Notes under the pieces: model-generated
The model's database searches: none
What the model saw: the letters and a program-made list of their open reading frames with translations, nothing else
What the model was told of the DNA's origin: nothing
Virus record (IMG/VR): IMGVR_UViG_3300001847_000544
Location: 1 to 20,295 of that record
Strand: one strand, 5' to 3'
DNA length: 20,295 nucleotides
Origin: a virus
Translations under genes and position numbers: made by a program
Part shown: in pieces, positions 2,679 through 9,423 of the stretch
How the letters are laid out: each line of letters begins with the position of its first letter
Numbering within the stretch: position 1 is the stretch's first letter

Positions 2679-2729
2679 TTTTCCACAGGTTGCGGAAAAC
2701 TTTTATACTTTTCCACAGGTTTTTCCACA
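2679..2729. other. DnaA-box cluster 1 (candidate origin or regulatory site)
   Basis: TTTTCCACA, the cyanobacterial DnaA-box form and a match to the general TTWTNCACA consensus, occurs at 2679-2687, 2709-2717 and 2721-2729. A one-mismatch inverted copy (TTTTCCGCA on the minus strand) lies at 2691-2699. An A+T-rich stretch (2731-2757) follows immediately, as expected of an unwinding element. Three exact boxes in 51 bases is far above chance. A role in replication initiation or in binding host DnaA is inferred and not shown. Confidence 0.6.
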
Positions 2730-2862
2730 GATTAAAAATACCTAAAAAAACATATGTTTGCGTTCTATTTAACTCTTAGGAAACGTACAGTAAAGGTCAC
2801 TCAGAGATGCAAGTTAAGCCCCCAGTCTATCACAATCTCCCACAATTTGCAACCCTCAGACT

Positions 2863-2985
2863 CATAAAATCAGCTTATCTCTGACATAAGCAGGACTGAT
2901 CAAAAAACGCTTGACAGACCCTCTCAGATGCCCTATATTGGTTGCAGACAAGGGAAGGGAACAAACCCCACCCCCAACATCACAA
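2863..2985 (+). repeat. Hairpin-plus-promoter cassette, copy 2 (PeSL-like)
   Basis: This is the second copy of the cassette at 1350-1490. Block a (2863-2904) keeps GCTTAT/ATAAGC as a shorter 6-bp stem (2873-2878 with 2886-2891) around a 7-base loop. Block b from 2925 carries the same 16-base -10 segment and ACAAGGG, then G and C runs. Here the -35 is intact. Read in the frame of the 57-residue gene's end, block a still spells Ile-Lys...Ala-Tyr...His-Lys-Gln-Asp-stop with an early TGA. It may therefore be a vestige of a duplicated gene end. Confidence 0.65.
2911..2939 (+). promoter_or_regulatory. Near-consensus sigma-70 promoter
   Basis: A perfect TTGACA (2911-2916) is followed by a 17-base spacer and TATATT (2934-2939, 5/6 match). 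It is the strongest host-type promoter in the window. The expected transcription start near 2946 leaves a leader of about 60 bases before ATG 3006. This argues against the in-frame ATG at 2928, which lies inside the spacer. Confidence 0.75.
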
Positions 2986-3005
2986 ACCCTCTCAAATCGC
3001 CTCTC

Positions 3006-3329
3006 ATGCGTAAGATCGAACGTCTCATGAACAAAGCTATCACTGAGTCGAAAGATTGGAAACTCGATAACACTGAGGTCCAATACTTTTCGGGTCATGA
3101 TATCTCTCGGGTGTATCTGTTCGGCAACTTGATTGCTGAGATTGGTCCTACCTATGTTCAACTTTTCGATGGTGGTTGGCAAACTGTTACCACCAAATCG
3201 CGTCTGAATGCTATTCTCAAGGAGCACGGATTGCCTGGTGAAGGTATCTTTCAGAAGAACTACAATTGGTTTTTCAAGTCTAACGACTACGGTGTGATTC
3301 CCTTCTTCTCAGGTATGCGTATCGCCTGA
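3006..3329 (+). CDS. Conserved hypothetical protein between the DnaA-box clusters (107 aa)
   Basis: A 107-residue protein beginning MRKIERLMNKAITESKDW, with GGWQTVTTKSRLNAILKEHG at about residues 57-76 and a C-terminal FFSGMRIA. I recall proteins with this QT.TTKSRLNA...FQK...W pattern in cyanophages and cyanobacteria, with no known function. The pattern of a helix, beta strands and a helix suggests a compact fold. ATG 3006 is chosen because the upstream ATG 2928 falls inside the promoter. The gene has its own strong early-type promoter and is bracketed by DnaA boxes: cluster 2 starts two bases after its TGA. A link to replication is an inference from position only. Confidence 0.8.
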   Translation: MRKIERLMNKAITESKDWKLDNTEVQYFSGHDISRVYLFGNLIAEIGPTYVQLFDGGWQTVTTKSRLNAILKEHGLPGEGIFQKNYNWFFKSNDYGVIPFFSGMRIA

Positions 3330-3331
3330 AG

Positions 3332-3383
3332 TTTTCCACAGAAATATACCTAACCTGTGGAAAACTAATTAACTTTTTCCACA
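3332..3383. other. DnaA-box cluster 2 (candidate origin or regulatory site)
   Basis: Exact TTTTCCACA boxes lie at 3332-3340 (+), 3356-3364 (-) and 3375-3383 (+). The first two form a perfect 11-bp inverted repeat (3331-3341 with 3355-3365) around 13 bases that contain ATACCTAA, a motif also found beside cluster 1 at 2738-2745. With cluster 1 this makes six exact boxes in two groups about 600 bases apart. The last box is about 20 bases upstream of a -10 box (3403-3408), so DnaA could also affect transcription of the gene at 3447. Confidence 0.6.
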
Positions 3384-3617: not shown

Positions 3618-3640
3618 AGGGGCAGTCAAATGCCCCTCTT
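3618..3640 (+). terminator. Terminator-like hairpin
   Basis: A perfect 7-bp stem AGGGGCA/TGCCCCT (3618-3624 with 3631-3637) with loop GTCAAA is followed by CTT. The U-tract is short, so termination may be partial. It lies 15 bases after the stop of the 51-residue gene. Confidence 0.55.
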
Positions 3641-3652
3641 AAGTATAACGAA

Positions 3653-3685
3653 CTCCGCCCAGATCCCAGTCGTGGCGGGGGTTTT
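3653..3685 (+). terminator. Second terminator-like hairpin at the junction
   Basis: CTCCGCC (3653-3659) can pair with GGCGGGG (3674-3680), with one T-G wobble, around a 14-base loop. GTTTT follows directly. Together with the hairpin at 3618-3640 it would isolate the early array from the genes to the right. The large loop lowers confidence. Confidence 0.4.
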
Positions 3686-3700
3686 CGGGGTCGGGGGCGG
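3674..3700 (+). other. G-rich tract (possible G-quadruplex)
   Basis: Runs of five, four and five G (3677-3681, 3687-3690, 3693-3697), flanked by GG pairs, stand out in an otherwise A+T-rich phage sequence. The tract could form a two-tetrad or bulged quadruplex on the plus strand. No function can be read from the sequence. Confidence 0.35.
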
Positions 3701-3707
3701 CCGTCTA

Positions 3708-3715
3708 TATAAATT
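3708..3715 (+). promoter_or_regulatory. Late-promoter-like box TATAAATT
   Basis: TATAAATT resembles the T4-type late promoter element TATAAATA with one difference. It is 123 bases before the next start codon, and a second box lies closer, so its use is uncertain. Confidence 0.3.
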
Positions 3716-3773
3716 AATGGGTCCTATGTAAGCTATAAAGTCTTGCATTCGACCTCTAATTATATCGACCCCC

Positions 3774-4170: not shown

Positions 4171-4402
4171 GTGGTACTTGGAGGTGGCATTCCCAAATCC
4201 TAGGATAGAACCAAAGTGGAGGGCACTGTATGAAATGTCTGAAGAAGAAGGTCACATGAGAGTTGCAAACGAAGAACATCTGAATGATTTACAAGTTGAT
4301 GAAGTTATGTTTTTCGATACATATAATGAGGCAGAAGATTTCGCAGCAGATCTCACGGCTAAATATGGATATTTCACTCAGGTAAAGGAATATGTCACGT
4401 AA
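4142..4402 (+). CDS. Hypothetical protein (86 aa)
   Basis: An 86-residue protein beginning MNQVDLKTTKWYLEVAFPNP. The pattern of strand (KWYLEVAF), central region (MRVANEEHLND), strand (VDEVMFFDTY) and helix with a final strand (AEDFAADLTAKYGYFTQVKEYV) suggests a compact alpha/beta domain. The start is uncertain. The frame is open from 4115, but that overlaps the previous gene by 56 bases; ATG 4142 overlaps by 29 bases and a GTG at 4151 by 20. The 3' end overlaps the start of the AbrB-like gene by 11 bases, so these genes are probably co-translated. No function is known. Confidence 0.7.
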   Translation: MNQVDLKTTKWYLEVAFPNPRIEPKWRALYEMSEEEGHMRVANEEHLNDLQVDEVMFFDTYNEAEDFAADLTAKYGYFTQVKEYVT

Positions 4403-4559
4403 ATTTATTATAGAGTTACAGGAGTCTCCAGAGGGCGATCTCATTCTTGAGTTCCCTCAGGAGATTGTTGATGAGCTAGGACTTATGGAAGGTGATGTCC
4501 TTCGATATGAACTAGAGGAAGATCTGAACGGTTTCCGAATGTACAAGGAAGAAAAATAG
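4392..4559 (+). CDS. AbrB/MazE-like swapped-hairpin protein (55 aa)
   Basis: A 55-residue protein beginning MSRKFIIELQ. The stretch LILEFPQEIVDELGLMEGDV (residues about 17-36) is the hallmark of the SpoVT/AbrB and MazE-type swapped-hairpin DNA-binding fold: a strand, P-x-E-h-h-x-x-L-G-h, then EGDhL. Members are dimeric transcription regulators or antitoxins. No toxin gene is adjacent, so a regulatory role in phage gene expression is likelier than a toxin-antitoxin pair, and a structural relic is possible. It overlaps the preceding gene by 11 bases and is followed at once by a GC-rich palindrome (4560-4581). Small AbrB-like proteins are known in cyanophages from memory. Confidence 0.75.
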   Translation: MSRKFIIELQESPEGDLILEFPQEIVDELGLMEGDVLRYELEEDLNGFRMYKEEK

Positions 4560-5589: not shown

Positions 5590-8500
5590 ATGCCTTGCTC
5601 CAATAATAACTGCAGCAATTTTACTCCTACAGGAGACGGTAGTGGAGATGTAGGAGTATCTCCAGTTGGAGTGCAGATGACAAAAGTTGTTTATCCAGCA
5701 TGGGATCAATCTGAGATTAATGCACCAGATTGGGAACGTGATCGCATGATGTATTACTATAATGATGTCTGCGAAACATCGTATTCAATTGGTGGACTTC
5801 ATACAGTTAGGGGTTCAACTAATGATGCTGTTGGTGCTGGAAATCCAACTACAGAAGTTGAATTTGGATTATCTGGAGTTGAAAATCCAAATGCAGGAAA
5901 AGTTAGATCAGTTTTAGGTACAAATTATTGGTGGGAAAATAGAACAGATCTTTGCCCAACAAGTTTTTATGGTTATGGTGGATGGGGAGCAGCTGCAAAT
6001 CGTCCAAATTTAAAAGTTAGATATTGGGATTGGTATCCATCAGAAATTAGTTTTGAACCCGTTTCATCAGATACTTGGTTCTCCTACATGTGGGACACTA
6101 CAAATGGTGTTGTTGGAAGACCATGCTATGTGATGTGTTATTTTATGTACACAAGACTGTCTACTGGAAGTTATGGTAGTGGTAAAACTGCTTATTCTAC
6201 AAGTCGTTACAACACTTATTATGGTTTAAGAAGAGTTCCTTTTACATGTGCTTGTACACCGAAGGAAACTTATGTCTATTATGAAATTGAAGATGGGAAA
6301 ATAACAGAACAAGAGGATCCTGATCCATATCCAATTATTTGGTCAGTTGGAACAAAAACTCAAAAGATTGCATTTCAATATCCAGGTGGTGTAGTTGATT
6401 CTACAGTTACGATTCGATTAGCTGGGATTGAAACTCAAAAAGATGTATTAACACTAGGTTCATGGACTCAAGCTTATACTTCATCAGGAGGATATATAGC
6501 TGAGGTATATACTGAATATGGAAAAGCAGAAGGATTTTTAAAAACAAATAATACTGGACATAGGTACAATACTCAACTTGAATGCAGATCTGGTTCTACT
6601 GTTGTTGCTAAATTAAATGCAACGTTTAGACCTGCAAATGGATTGGGTGATAGTGGTTATCCAGATTCAAAAGTGAAGATCACAGGTATCGAAACAACAT
6701 CAAATACACCATCAATTACAAATGGAACAACTTATGATTTGTATGCAAGATATGAAACTAATAGTAAAAACCAATTTAAAATTGGTGAGGTTCAATTCAC
6801 AAGTGTAGCCAGATCAAATACAAAAAAAGGTGTAGCAATTACATTCCATGTAAATGAACCAAAACAGGTTACTTCTGGAATGATCGGTTCATCTCTTTCT
6901 AGTCTTGGTTTTTATAAAGTTTGGGATGGTTCATCTGGTCCTACCTATCAATCACCACAAGGAAATGGAGTGTGGGAATCTGAAAATACTAATGTAATTA
7001 AAGATTATACCTTACCAAATGGTGCGGTAATTCGCATGAGAATTTCTTCGGTTAAAAATGGAAGTAATTGGTATACAAACTGGAAAATACTAAGAATTAT
7101 TCGTAGAGGGTCAAATTATGCAACTGGAGATGGAGTAACGTATACAGGTCAAAATACTTATTATTTGTATTATCCAAACGCAGATGCAGCAAATAAAGTT
7201 GGTATTGCATTAATGGTCTCAAAGACACAAGATGGAAATTTCTCACAAGGTTCAACACTATTGCAAGTTGGAGATACAATTAATGGATGGACAATATCAC
7301 GTTTAAAACACAGTGATGATGAATTTAATACTCATGTAGCAGAACTTATAAAAGGCACAAATTCATTTACTGCAGATACAACATATACTTCTGGTATAGG
7401 AATAGCAGTTAAAGTTCTTGCTGGGTGGGGAATAGCAAATAGGGCTATGTTGATTGGTAGATATGAATTTCAAAGAAAGGAGATTGTATATTCAACAGCA
7501 CAAGTTGATGGTGATGTACCTCAAGAAGAATATGAAATTGTTAAACCAAAACTTCAAGCTGTTGTGGAAAATGGAAAAATAACAAAAGTTCAAATTATTA
7601 ATCCAGGAAGAAATTTACAGGATCCTAGAATTGAACCAATCAAAATTGCTGTTGAATATCCACCAACATATGTAAATCATACAAAATATGTCAATAATAT
7701 GGAATCTGGAGATAATCCTGATATTGCTTGGTCAAAAGCTAGAGGTACAGGAAAATTAGCAAAATTGCAACCAGTATTTTCAGAAGGTATTTTAGTTGAT
7801 GTTAAAGTTATTAATGGTGGTAGTGGTTATTCATCTACTAAACCACCATATGTAGAAGTTCCATATATTGCCAAAGAAGAAGTAACTAGTTTAGAAGCTG
7901 GCACATCAGTAGAAAAAAGAGAAGGTGGGGGATCAAAACAATTATTTGAAAAATCCGAAGCCTTTAAAGCGATGGCAAAAGTTGATTACAAGATGGGTAA
8001 GTTGGATCTTGATGTTGATGATATGACTCAATATTATACAAAAAATCCCACAACTGGTGCATTTGAATTTGATTCCAAAAAAGTTCCATATACTGAATAT
8101 ACTCAAAAAGGATTTACTTATAGCAACTATACAAGTTTACAAAATCAACATTATGCACCCAAATCATATAGCAAATTAAAAGGTAGTATTAAAGATTTAA
8201 ACAAGAAAAAGAATGCACAAGTATATGTTGCTCCAAAAACAGGAACAAGTAAAAGTTGGGCTCAACAATTTTTACCACCTACAAGTAAAGAAAAAAATAA
8301 AGAATTATCTCCAGATTACAAAACTCTTCTATCTGAGATGAAAAAAACTGATGAAAAAAATAAACAGGCTACTGTTACGAATAAAATTTCTAATGAAAGA
8401 TCAAATGATCTAAAAGGACTATTATCTAAAAATAGTGTTTCATATCCAAATGAATTTAATATTGAACCAAGCAAAGCAGATTTAAGTTATACTGGTCAAA

Positions 8501-9423
8501 ATATCAAAACTGATGATTTGACAATTAAATCATATGAATCTAAATCATCATCAGTTAAAATAACTACTTCAACATCAAATGTTCAGTATTATCCTCAAGC
8601 ATTTAAAGATTTTTATAAAGATAATTTAAATCCAAAAGATCACAAAGCACTATTAGAATTAATGGACTCTAATGATAAGACACATGAGGAAAATATTAAT
8701 AGCTTGTGGAAAAGAGATTTGGATTCTGCAAGAACTTTTGTGTACGATGGGGTGTCTACTCAAACTGTTAAATATGCTTTTTATAATTTACCCTGTGCTT
8801 CAGCAGATTTTAAATACATGTTGAATGGTTTTTGTCCAGATCCAAGACCAACAACAAATATTAAAATTACTCTTGGAGTAAAGGTTAATAACCAAGATTA
8901 TACAAATGAACGTGGACCTTGCAAAAAATGCATTTATACTGATGCTGCAACAATTTCTGCATATAATAGTTTAGTAAGTTCTTATGGTTCAGGTAATGTA
9001 TCCATGGAAGATGCTTGGTGTCAAACTTATGCTTTCCCAACTTATTATGCTGCTCATACTGATGGTATTCCAAAGGGAATACCATTTGGAGCATACTCAC
9101 TTCCATACTTATCTACAATTTTTGGTGGATATACAAGATCATATATAAAATCTCAATATGGAAAACAATACGTATATGAAGGTTGTCATGATTATGAAGT
9201 ATCTGGATTTTTACAAGTTTTACACGATCTCACTTTAGAGGGAGATATTTTTACTGCGGCATTAGAAAAATATGGTAATCCCTATGATTATAAGTGTGGA
9301 AGAGTTTATGAAGATGGTATTGCAATTAGTCAATTAGATCTAAATAATACTATAGGTGCATCTGAGGATTATCTTCCTGGAGCACCAAATCAATTATCAA
9401 GTCCAATTGTATCAGAAGCATAA
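5590..9423 (+). CDS. Large virion structural protein (1277 aa), unassigned
   Basis: A 1277-residue protein rich in Thr, Ser, Asn, Gly and Tyr, with the beta-strand repetition usual for tail or baseplate proteins. Residues about 1-250 are Tyr/Trp-rich with several cysteines. About 250-640 look like repeated beta domains. About 660-750 hold two GxGY-like units (GKITKVQIINPG, GGSGYSSTKPP) related to those of the giant protein at 12971. About 780-1020 is Lys-rich and probably flexible. The C-terminal part (about 1060-1250) has regularly placed cysteines (CKKC, WCQTY, EGCHDY, YKCGR) that could bind a metal or form disulfides. No enzyme motif is seen. ATG 5590 has no Shine-Dalgarno but follows a late box. 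It overlaps the PAAR gene by one base, which suggests a baseplate or spike-associated role. Confidence 0.85.
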   Translation: MPCSNNNCSNFTPTGDGSGDVGVSPVGVQMTKVVYPAWDQSEINAPDWERDRMMYYYNDVCETSYSIGGLHTVRGSTNDAVGAGNPTTEVEFGLSGVENPNAGKVRSVLGTNYWWENRTDLCPTSFYGYGGWGAAANRPNLKVRYWDWYPSEISFEPVSSDTWFSYMWDTTNGVVGRPCYVMCYFMYTRLSTGSYGSGKTAYSTSRYNTYYGLRRVPFTCACTPKETYVYYEIEDGKITEQEDPDPYPIIWSVGTKTQKIAFQYPGGVVDSTVTIRLAGIETQKDVLTLGSWTQAYTSSGGYIAEVYTEYGKAEGFLKTNNTGHRYNTQLECRSGSTVVAKLNATFRPANGLGDSGYPDSKVKITGIETTSNTPSITNGTTYDLYARYETNSKNQFKIGEVQFTSVARSNTKKGVAITFHVNEPKQVTSGMIGSSLSSLGFYKVWDGSSGPTYQSPQGNGVWESENTNVIKDYTLPNGAVIRMRISSVKNGSNWYTNWKILRIIRRGSNYATGDGVTYTGQNTYYLYYPNADAANKVGIALMVSKTQDGNFSQGSTLLQVGDTINGWTISRLKHSDDEFNTHVAELIKGTNSFTADTTYTSGIGIAVKVLAGWGIANRAMLIGRYEFQRKEIVYSTAQVDGDVPQEEYEIVKPKLQAVVENGKITKVQIINPGRNLQDPRIEPIKIAVEYPPTYVNHTKYVNNMESGDNPDIAWSKARGTGKLAKLQPVFSEGILVDVKVINGGSGYSSTKPPYVEVPYIAKEEVTSLEAGTSVEKREGGGSKQLFEKSEAFKAMAKVDYKMGKLDLDVDDMTQYYTKNPTTGAFEFDSKKVPYTEYTQKGFTYSNYTSLQNQHYAPKSYSKLKGSIKDLNKKKNAQVYVAPKTGTSKSWAQQFLPPTSKEKNKELSPDYKTLLSEMKKTDEKNKQATVTNKISNERSNDLKGLLSKNSVSYPNEFNIEPSKADLSYTGQNIKTDDLTIKSYESKSSSVKITTSTSNVQYYPQAFKDFYKDNLNPKDHKALLELMDSNDKTHEENINSLWKRDLDSARTFVYDGVSTQTVKYAFYNLPCASADFKYMLNGFCPDPRPTTNIKITLGVKVNNQDYTNERGPCKKCIYTDAATISAYNSLVSSYGSGNVSMEDAWCQTYAFPTYYAAHTDGIPKGIPFGAYSLPYLSTIFGGYTRSYIKSQYGKQYVYEGCHDYEVSGFLQVLHDLTLEGDIFTAALEKYGNPYDYKCGRVYEDGIAISQLDLNNTIGASEDYLPGAPNQLSSPIVSEA

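Follow-up and report, generated by a model that had tools for sequence, protein, structure and literature searches.

The window, i.e. the whole stretch of 20,295 nucleotides that was analysed (IMG/VR record IMGVR_UViG_3300001847_000544), is a fragment of a T4-like cyanomyophage, and its closest relative by DNA at the locus is Synechococcus phage S-CREM1. Two tight arrays of the 9-mer TTTTCCACA lie on either side of a small gene. The first array is at the upstream end of a conserved non-coding element, in which the boxes are followed by an AT-rich tract, a core and a σ70 promoter. The following features were located (positions in the window):

2679..2687, plus strand: DnaA box 1 of array 1, exact TTTTCCACA
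2691..2699, minus strand: variant box of array 1, TTTTCCGCA (one mismatch)
2709..2717, plus strand: DnaA box 3 of array 1, exact TTTTCCACA
2721..2729, plus strand: DnaA box 4 of array 1, exact TTTTCCACA, 12 bp (about one helical turn) from box 3
2730..2756, plus strand: AT-rich tract GATTAAAAATACCTAAAAAAACATATG, candidate DNA-unwinding element
2736..2857, plus strand: conserved non-coding core, AT-rich tract included (nhmmer 52.2 bits, E 6.5e-14, with a profile of 12 sequences that includes the window, independent support coming from relatives outside the profile)
2911..2939, plus strand: near-consensus σ70 early promoter TTGACA-N17-TATATT, downstream of the core
3006..3329, plus strand: Kyano_Gp96 gene, 107 aa (PF23790, E 1.6e-38; phrog_554; function unassigned), first gene past the element
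3332..3340, plus strand: DnaA box 1 of array 2, exact TTTTCCACA
3356..3364, minus strand: DnaA box 2 of array 2, exact TTTTCCACA, inverted pair with the box at 3332
3375..3383, plus strand: DnaA box 3 of array 2, exact TTTTCCACA

Array 1 covers 2679-2729 (51 bp) and array 2 covers 3332-3383 (52 bp). A first-pass annotation of this DNA had counted six exact boxes and one single-mismatch copy in two groups of about 51 bases, which the recount reproduced. The A-rich tract it had noted after the first group is present (2730-2756), and the only two exact matches outside the arrays (7563 and 8705, both on the minus strand) do lie in the 1277-codon ORF at 5590-9423, as it had stated; six of the eight exact boxes of the window are in the two arrays. 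The inverted pair in the second group, given there as 11 bp, has arms of 12 bp (AGTTTTCCACAG / CTGTGGAAAACT). After dinucleotide shuffling, windows contained 0.51 exact sites on average, and eight copies or a triple within 60 bp occurred in 0 of 2000 shuffles. When up to one mismatch was allowed, 23 matches were counted versus 10.9 expected, a number reached in 0 of 100 shuffles. The 12-bp spacing between boxes 3 and 4 also occurs in S-H38, S-PM2, Syn1 and S-CREM1, and the TGCGGAAA/W variant was found within the arrays of other phages, too. A perfect TTGACA-N17-TATAAT is present at 2511-2539 inside a small ORF (2507-2671), about 140 bp before array 1; a transcript starting there could cross the array.

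The 9-mer TTTTCCACA is the published cyanobacterial DnaA box, which is bound cooperatively in vitro by domain IV of Cyanothece DnaA (PMC4674748). In 31 picocyanobacterial regions upstream of dnaN, the commonest 9-mers were CTACTACTA (22/31) and GTAGTAGTA (21/31), both of the DnaA-trio type, followed by TTTTCCACA (20/31), which is thus the commonest DnaA-box 9-mer at the host origins. Published binding and host counts both back the first-pass assignment of the 9-mer to the cyanobacterial form. DnaA is encoded by all six host-type genomes tested, and its DNA-binding domain (domain IV) was absent from all 13 phages tested. The identification of the arrays as cyanobacterial DnaA boxes is well supported.

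In an alignment of 13 phages, the AT-rich tract (consensus roughly AAATgTaTTAAAAAAaCATA) starts between a few bases and about 30 bp past the boxes. It is followed by a block with an invariant CTTAGC and a near-invariant TGTCAA and then by a near-perfect σ70 promoter. The least stable 30-mer of the element belongs to the lowest 2.7% of the window, which is itself AT-rich, and to the lowest 0.01-1% in the complete genomes of seven relatives. For P-SSM4, the least stable 50-mer of the whole genome falls in the element; at the 100-bp scale, S-PM2, Syn33 and the window show only a weak effect. Further AT-rich repeats were seen in some relatives. S-PM2 (AJ630128, 19459-19608) and locus L258 have tandem 17-bp and inverted repeats of the AAATCTTAAG type about 200 bp past the box array, and Syn1 has a similar AT-rich inverted-repeat region downstream of its element. 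Small hypothetical ORFs annotated in Syn9 (gp86/gp87, 52477-52797), Syn33 (Syn33_082) and S-CAM22 (gp162) overlap the element, and some of them may be spurious.

For an estimate of the association between boxes and core, IMG/VR was scanned with a core-only pattern containing no box, which yielded 42 non-redundant contigs. At least two exact TTTTCCACA were present within 220 bp upstream of the core in 40 of them, and TTTTCCACA was the top 9-mer upstream of the core. In total, 88 boxes were counted in 9.2 kb upstream of the core versus 30 in the remaining 370 kb of these contigs, a 117-fold enrichment, while 300 letter permutations of TTTTCCACA occurred 0.18 times on average (maximum 15). The usual geometry comprises a plus-strand box at 0, the TGCGGAAA variant on the minus strand at 14, a minus-strand box at 23 and often a fourth box at 31 bp. 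In complete genomes, most or many of the copies are at the element (5/6 in S-CREM1, P 3e-10; S-SZBM1, P 4e-7; S-H38, P 6e-6; S-PM2, P 3e-5). Conversely, two IMG/VR scans for box pairs returned the core in 71 of the 201 loci among the listed matches, hence other viruses, too, have box pairs without the core.

Absence of the boxes from close relatives had been named by the first-pass annotation as an outcome speaking against its proposal; the opposite was found, since the arrays recur. S-CREM1 has two arrays flanking its Kyano_Gp96 gene as in the window. Exact-box arrays were also found in S-H38, S-PM2, S-SZBM1, S-M1, Syn9, Syn1, S-SM1, Syn33, S-SM2, DSL-LC03 and S-CAM22 as well as in P-SSM7, S-ShM2 and S-SSM5, and local alignment of the box region added S-CAM1, S-CAM3, S-RIM44, S-RIM32, S-H35 and S-RIM4. 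The second array is present in some phages only, among them, besides the window, S-CREM1, S-SZBM1, DSL-LC03, P-SSM7 and S-ShM2. In Syn33 (46489), S-CAM22 (42049) and S-M1 (171502), a lone exact box precedes the array by about 228 bp as a conserved outlier. No exact-box array was found in P-SSM2, P-SSM4, S-CRM01, S-RSM4, S-SCSM2R, S-T4, P-HM1, P-RSM4, T4 or the podovirus P-SSP7. Prochlorococcus hosts were considered as an explanation for the missing boxes and rejected, as P-SSM7 has boxes and Prochlorococcus-like low-GC genomes share the oriC box.

Leaving sub-threshold matches aside, 7 of 10 tested cyanomyophages have a single copy of the core in their complete genome, namely S-CREM1, S-H38, S-SZBM1, S-PM2, Syn9, Syn33 and, with a weaker match, P-SSM4. 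A core without boxes was found in S-RSM4, S-SCSM2R and P-SSM4, and S-T4 has a weak core plus one near-box. Neither boxes nor, in the profile search, a convincing core were detected in P-SSM2 and S-CRM01. A stricter core pattern had no match in ten genomes; this pattern was too strict and the absence was not counted as evidence. The distant phage S-SKS1 has three boxes with 21-bp spacing, two TTATCCACA and one TTTTCCACA. Past the boxes come tandem AT-rich repeats, then a core-like segment that has TTTTGTCAAGCACC at its end, and then TTGACA-N17-TATAAT; the core of S-SKS1 was identified by eye, with a profile score below significance. The tandem repeats of this phage (NC_020851, about 151250-151410, reverse strand) are about 22 bp long (CTCTTATAAACCTTCTCTAATA), with the boxes immediately on one side and the core-like segment on the other.

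In all 14 phages measured, S-SKS1 among them, g25 follows the element at a distance of about 3-9 kb (3.0-8.8 kb), and the orientation is the same. The record of S-SZBM1 is circular, and there the distance of about 7 kb wraps round the record start. Downstream in the window, a baseplate-wedge-like protein (phrog_719), the g25 homologue (10557) and the g6 homologue (10970) are encoded. That the arrays flank one small gene, as reported in the first pass, is true of the window, where a real gene (PF23790) lies between them, but the flanking is not conserved. The Gp96 gene can precede the element by up to 1.3 kb or follow it by up to 4.5 kb. A pairing of arrays and Gp96 as the essential feature was therefore rejected: Gp96 shifts relative to the element, while array 1 stays joined to the AT-rich core. 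A defence role of the neighbouring small proteins was rejected as well, since PADLOC gave no match. Past the small genes, two G+C-rich hairpin-like sequences (AGGGGCAGTCAAATGCCCCT and CCGCC...GGCGGGGGTTTT) at 3640-3720 are possible terminators, and a TATATAAATTAA stretch comes after them. The 55-aa ORF at 4392-4559 (phrog_661) has a syntenic counterpart in S-CREM1 annotated as MazE antitoxin, and an AbrB/MazE-family gene is located in the matching region of Syn33.

The first-pass annotation had offered three functions for the arrays, namely an origin fired by host DnaA, a sponge for DnaA and DnaA-controlled promoters; of these, the anatomy agrees best with an origin and least with a passive sponge. 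We propose, with about an even chance of being right, that the conserved element acts in cis as an initiation site and is probably a replication origin of early infection which recruits host DnaA. Host DnaA would bind the perfect-box array cooperatively. The DnaA complex, aided by transcription from the strong host-type promoter downstream, would then open the adjacent AT-rich tract, where the T4-type replisome of the phage might be loaded to carry out the initial rounds of DNA synthesis, with a later switch to recombination-dependent replication. In the phage of the window, the second array, 0.65 kb away, could make the site bipartite. The wider proposal that T4-like cyanophages share one dedicated host-DnaA origin, which is bipartite in some lineages and had its boxes replaced in some while the core was kept, is held more tentatively and at somewhat less than an even chance.

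Several properties of oriC-type origins are present. A cluster of host-type DnaA boxes lies in non-coding DNA, an easily unwound AT-rich tract is adjacent (its 30-bp minimum ranks among the lowest 0.01-1% in complete genomes), and the site is single and conserved per genome with fixed synteny. Two others were not found. A DnaA-trio by the proximal box, which is common but not universal at such origins, was not conserved (CTACTA in 5/37 elements, TAGTAG in 0/37, compared with CTACTACTA in 22/31 host origins), and complete genomes had no minimum of cumulative GC skew at the element, a usual though not universal mark. The skew check suggested in the first pass gave a local low point at about 3.2-3.7 kb of the window, but no global minimum there in complete genomes. 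In these, raw cumulative skew shows a nearly steady climb. After detrending, 6/7 genomes have their maximum at a distance of 3-14 kb from the element, which is more easily explained by gene-module composition. GC skew was rejected as proof of an origin, the detrended extremum being opposite in sign. Against an origin fired by host DnaA stands the T4-type replisome carried by the phages; T4 itself is not known to use DnaA. Since box-less relatives retain the core, DnaA is not universally required. The lack of both boxes and a convincing core in P-SSM2 and S-CRM01 and the near-consensus quality of the boxes at the WH7803 oriC also count against this reading.

In other bacteria, DnaA also works as a transcription factor, and the arrays might instead activate, repress or time one or more early promoters according to the replication state of the host, with no origin involved. 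A σ70-like promoter (at least 10/12) was found downstream in 33 of 37 elements (89%) compared to 4% of background segments. It lies downstream of the AT-rich tract and points away from it. The boxes are about 190-260 bp upstream of this rightward promoter and do not overlap it, a distance that argues against simple promoter control. On the reverse strand of the core, many phages have a TTGACA-N17-TAAG block of invariant spacing which could point into the AT-rich tract and would suit such control, but in the window this block matches a promoter poorly, and a leftward promoter within the core was accordingly kept as a lead only. Minus-strand ATG ORFs of at least 100 aa were searched in the 1 kb before the core and none was found (0/28). 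Furthermore, transcription control needs neither a destabilised AT-rich tract nor a fixed spacing, and the gene downstream of the element differs among phages. We regard this explanation as unlikely.

A host or phage protein other than DnaA could recognise TTTTCCACA, the core then being the regulatory or origin region of that protein. An unrelated binder could act, given that the core is kept without boxes, which are replaced by GAGAATCAAT-type repeats in two cases: GAGAATCAAT/ATTGAGAATCA repeats occupy the box position in the box-less S-RSM4 (L136, about 2090-2195) and in the IMG locus L439, possibly as sites of another regulator. In DSL-LC03, such repeats and boxes occur together. The box word itself speaks for DnaA, being the commonest DnaA-box word at host origins. 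Its variation is confined almost wholly to the first two bases, with bases 3-9 near-invariant, and the T-to-A change at position 3 in the boxes of S-SKS1 is exactly the one tolerated in the DnaA consensus TTWTNCACA. A different binder is considered quite improbable.

E. coli datA is a locus for DnaA titration with a high-affinity cluster of DnaA boxes. A similar sponge would titrate host DnaA and stop initiation on the host chromosome. Up to seven perfect boxes in 460 bp (DSL-LC03) would be in line with titration, as would the higher quality of the phage boxes, which are closer to consensus than those at the oriC of marine Synechococcus WH7803, where near-consensus boxes only were found. Most phages have two to four boxes, though, a small number for titration as long as the phage genome has not been amplified, and neither strict geometry nor a conserved adjoining AT-rich tract and core is expected of a passive sponge. 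While datA resembles the element as a DnaA-box cluster, a high-affinity cluster free of origin features was not what was found here: the cyanophage array is fused to a conserved AT-rich tract, core and promoter. The sponge is thus judged highly doubtful. A structured leader or primer RNA as the functional unit, with incidental boxes, would account for a conserved non-coding core but is hardly credible, since neither pairs nor covariation were seen in the consensus fold, Rfam had no matching family and the box enrichment is far too strong for incidental sites.

A DnaA-recruiting origin, to return to the preferred reading, can be compared with known systems. Cyanobacterial oriC, located upstream of dnaN in Synechococcus, Anabaena and Cyanothece, likewise has clustered TTTTCCACA boxes beside AT-rich non-coding DNA, its tandem and inverted boxes being spaced by about 10-12 or 20-24 bp. 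The element differs in being on a lytic phage genome, in lacking a conserved DnaA-trio and an adjacent dnaN, in having a phage-specific core and early promoter and in the existence of box-less relatives. In Bacillus subtilis and Helicobacter pylori, oriC is bipartite, with two box arrays flanking a gene and one of them beside AT-rich DNA. The two arrays of the window are arranged in the same way, except that the flanked gene is not dnaA and that the second array occurs in some phages only. Host DnaA sites are combined with an own initiator (RepA, O) and iterons in P1 oriR, lambda and other phage and plasmid origins, the phages being temperate. The predicted use of host DnaA sites at a phage origin is shared; unlike these, the cyanophage is lytic and has a replisome of the T4 type, and no origin-binding initiator is known from it. 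The T4 origin oriF/ori(uvsY), annotated by gene 25 (NC_000866), also combines a promoter with easily opened DNA near gene 25 of a T4-like genome, but lies on the other side of that gene and is primed by the uvsY transcript. At T4-type origins, a promoter sends its transcript into an unwinding element (R-loop); in the cyanophage element, the reverse-strand block, poorly kept in the window, is the one that could point into the AT-rich tract. The T4 genome has no DnaA-box clusters, and oriF, compared with the element by box and core patterns, is a loose parallel only.

For Syn9, a single theta origin has been predicted, according to a review (PMC2984593). In the literature covered on cyanophages with DnaA or DnaA boxes, which does not extend to the original paper on the Syn9 theta origin, no element of this kind is described. 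T4-like cyanophages are among the most abundant viruses of the ocean. The element is carried by many T4-like phages of marine and freshwater cyanobacteria and, judged by its sequence, looks like an undescribed replication origin that borrows host DnaA. It provides a precise, testable location for the start of replication and sets the cyanophages apart from T4, which has no such sites. If the proposal is true, this mode of initiation would be new for T4-like phages, and phage DNA synthesis would be tied to the replication control of the host and hence possibly to light and the cell cycle.
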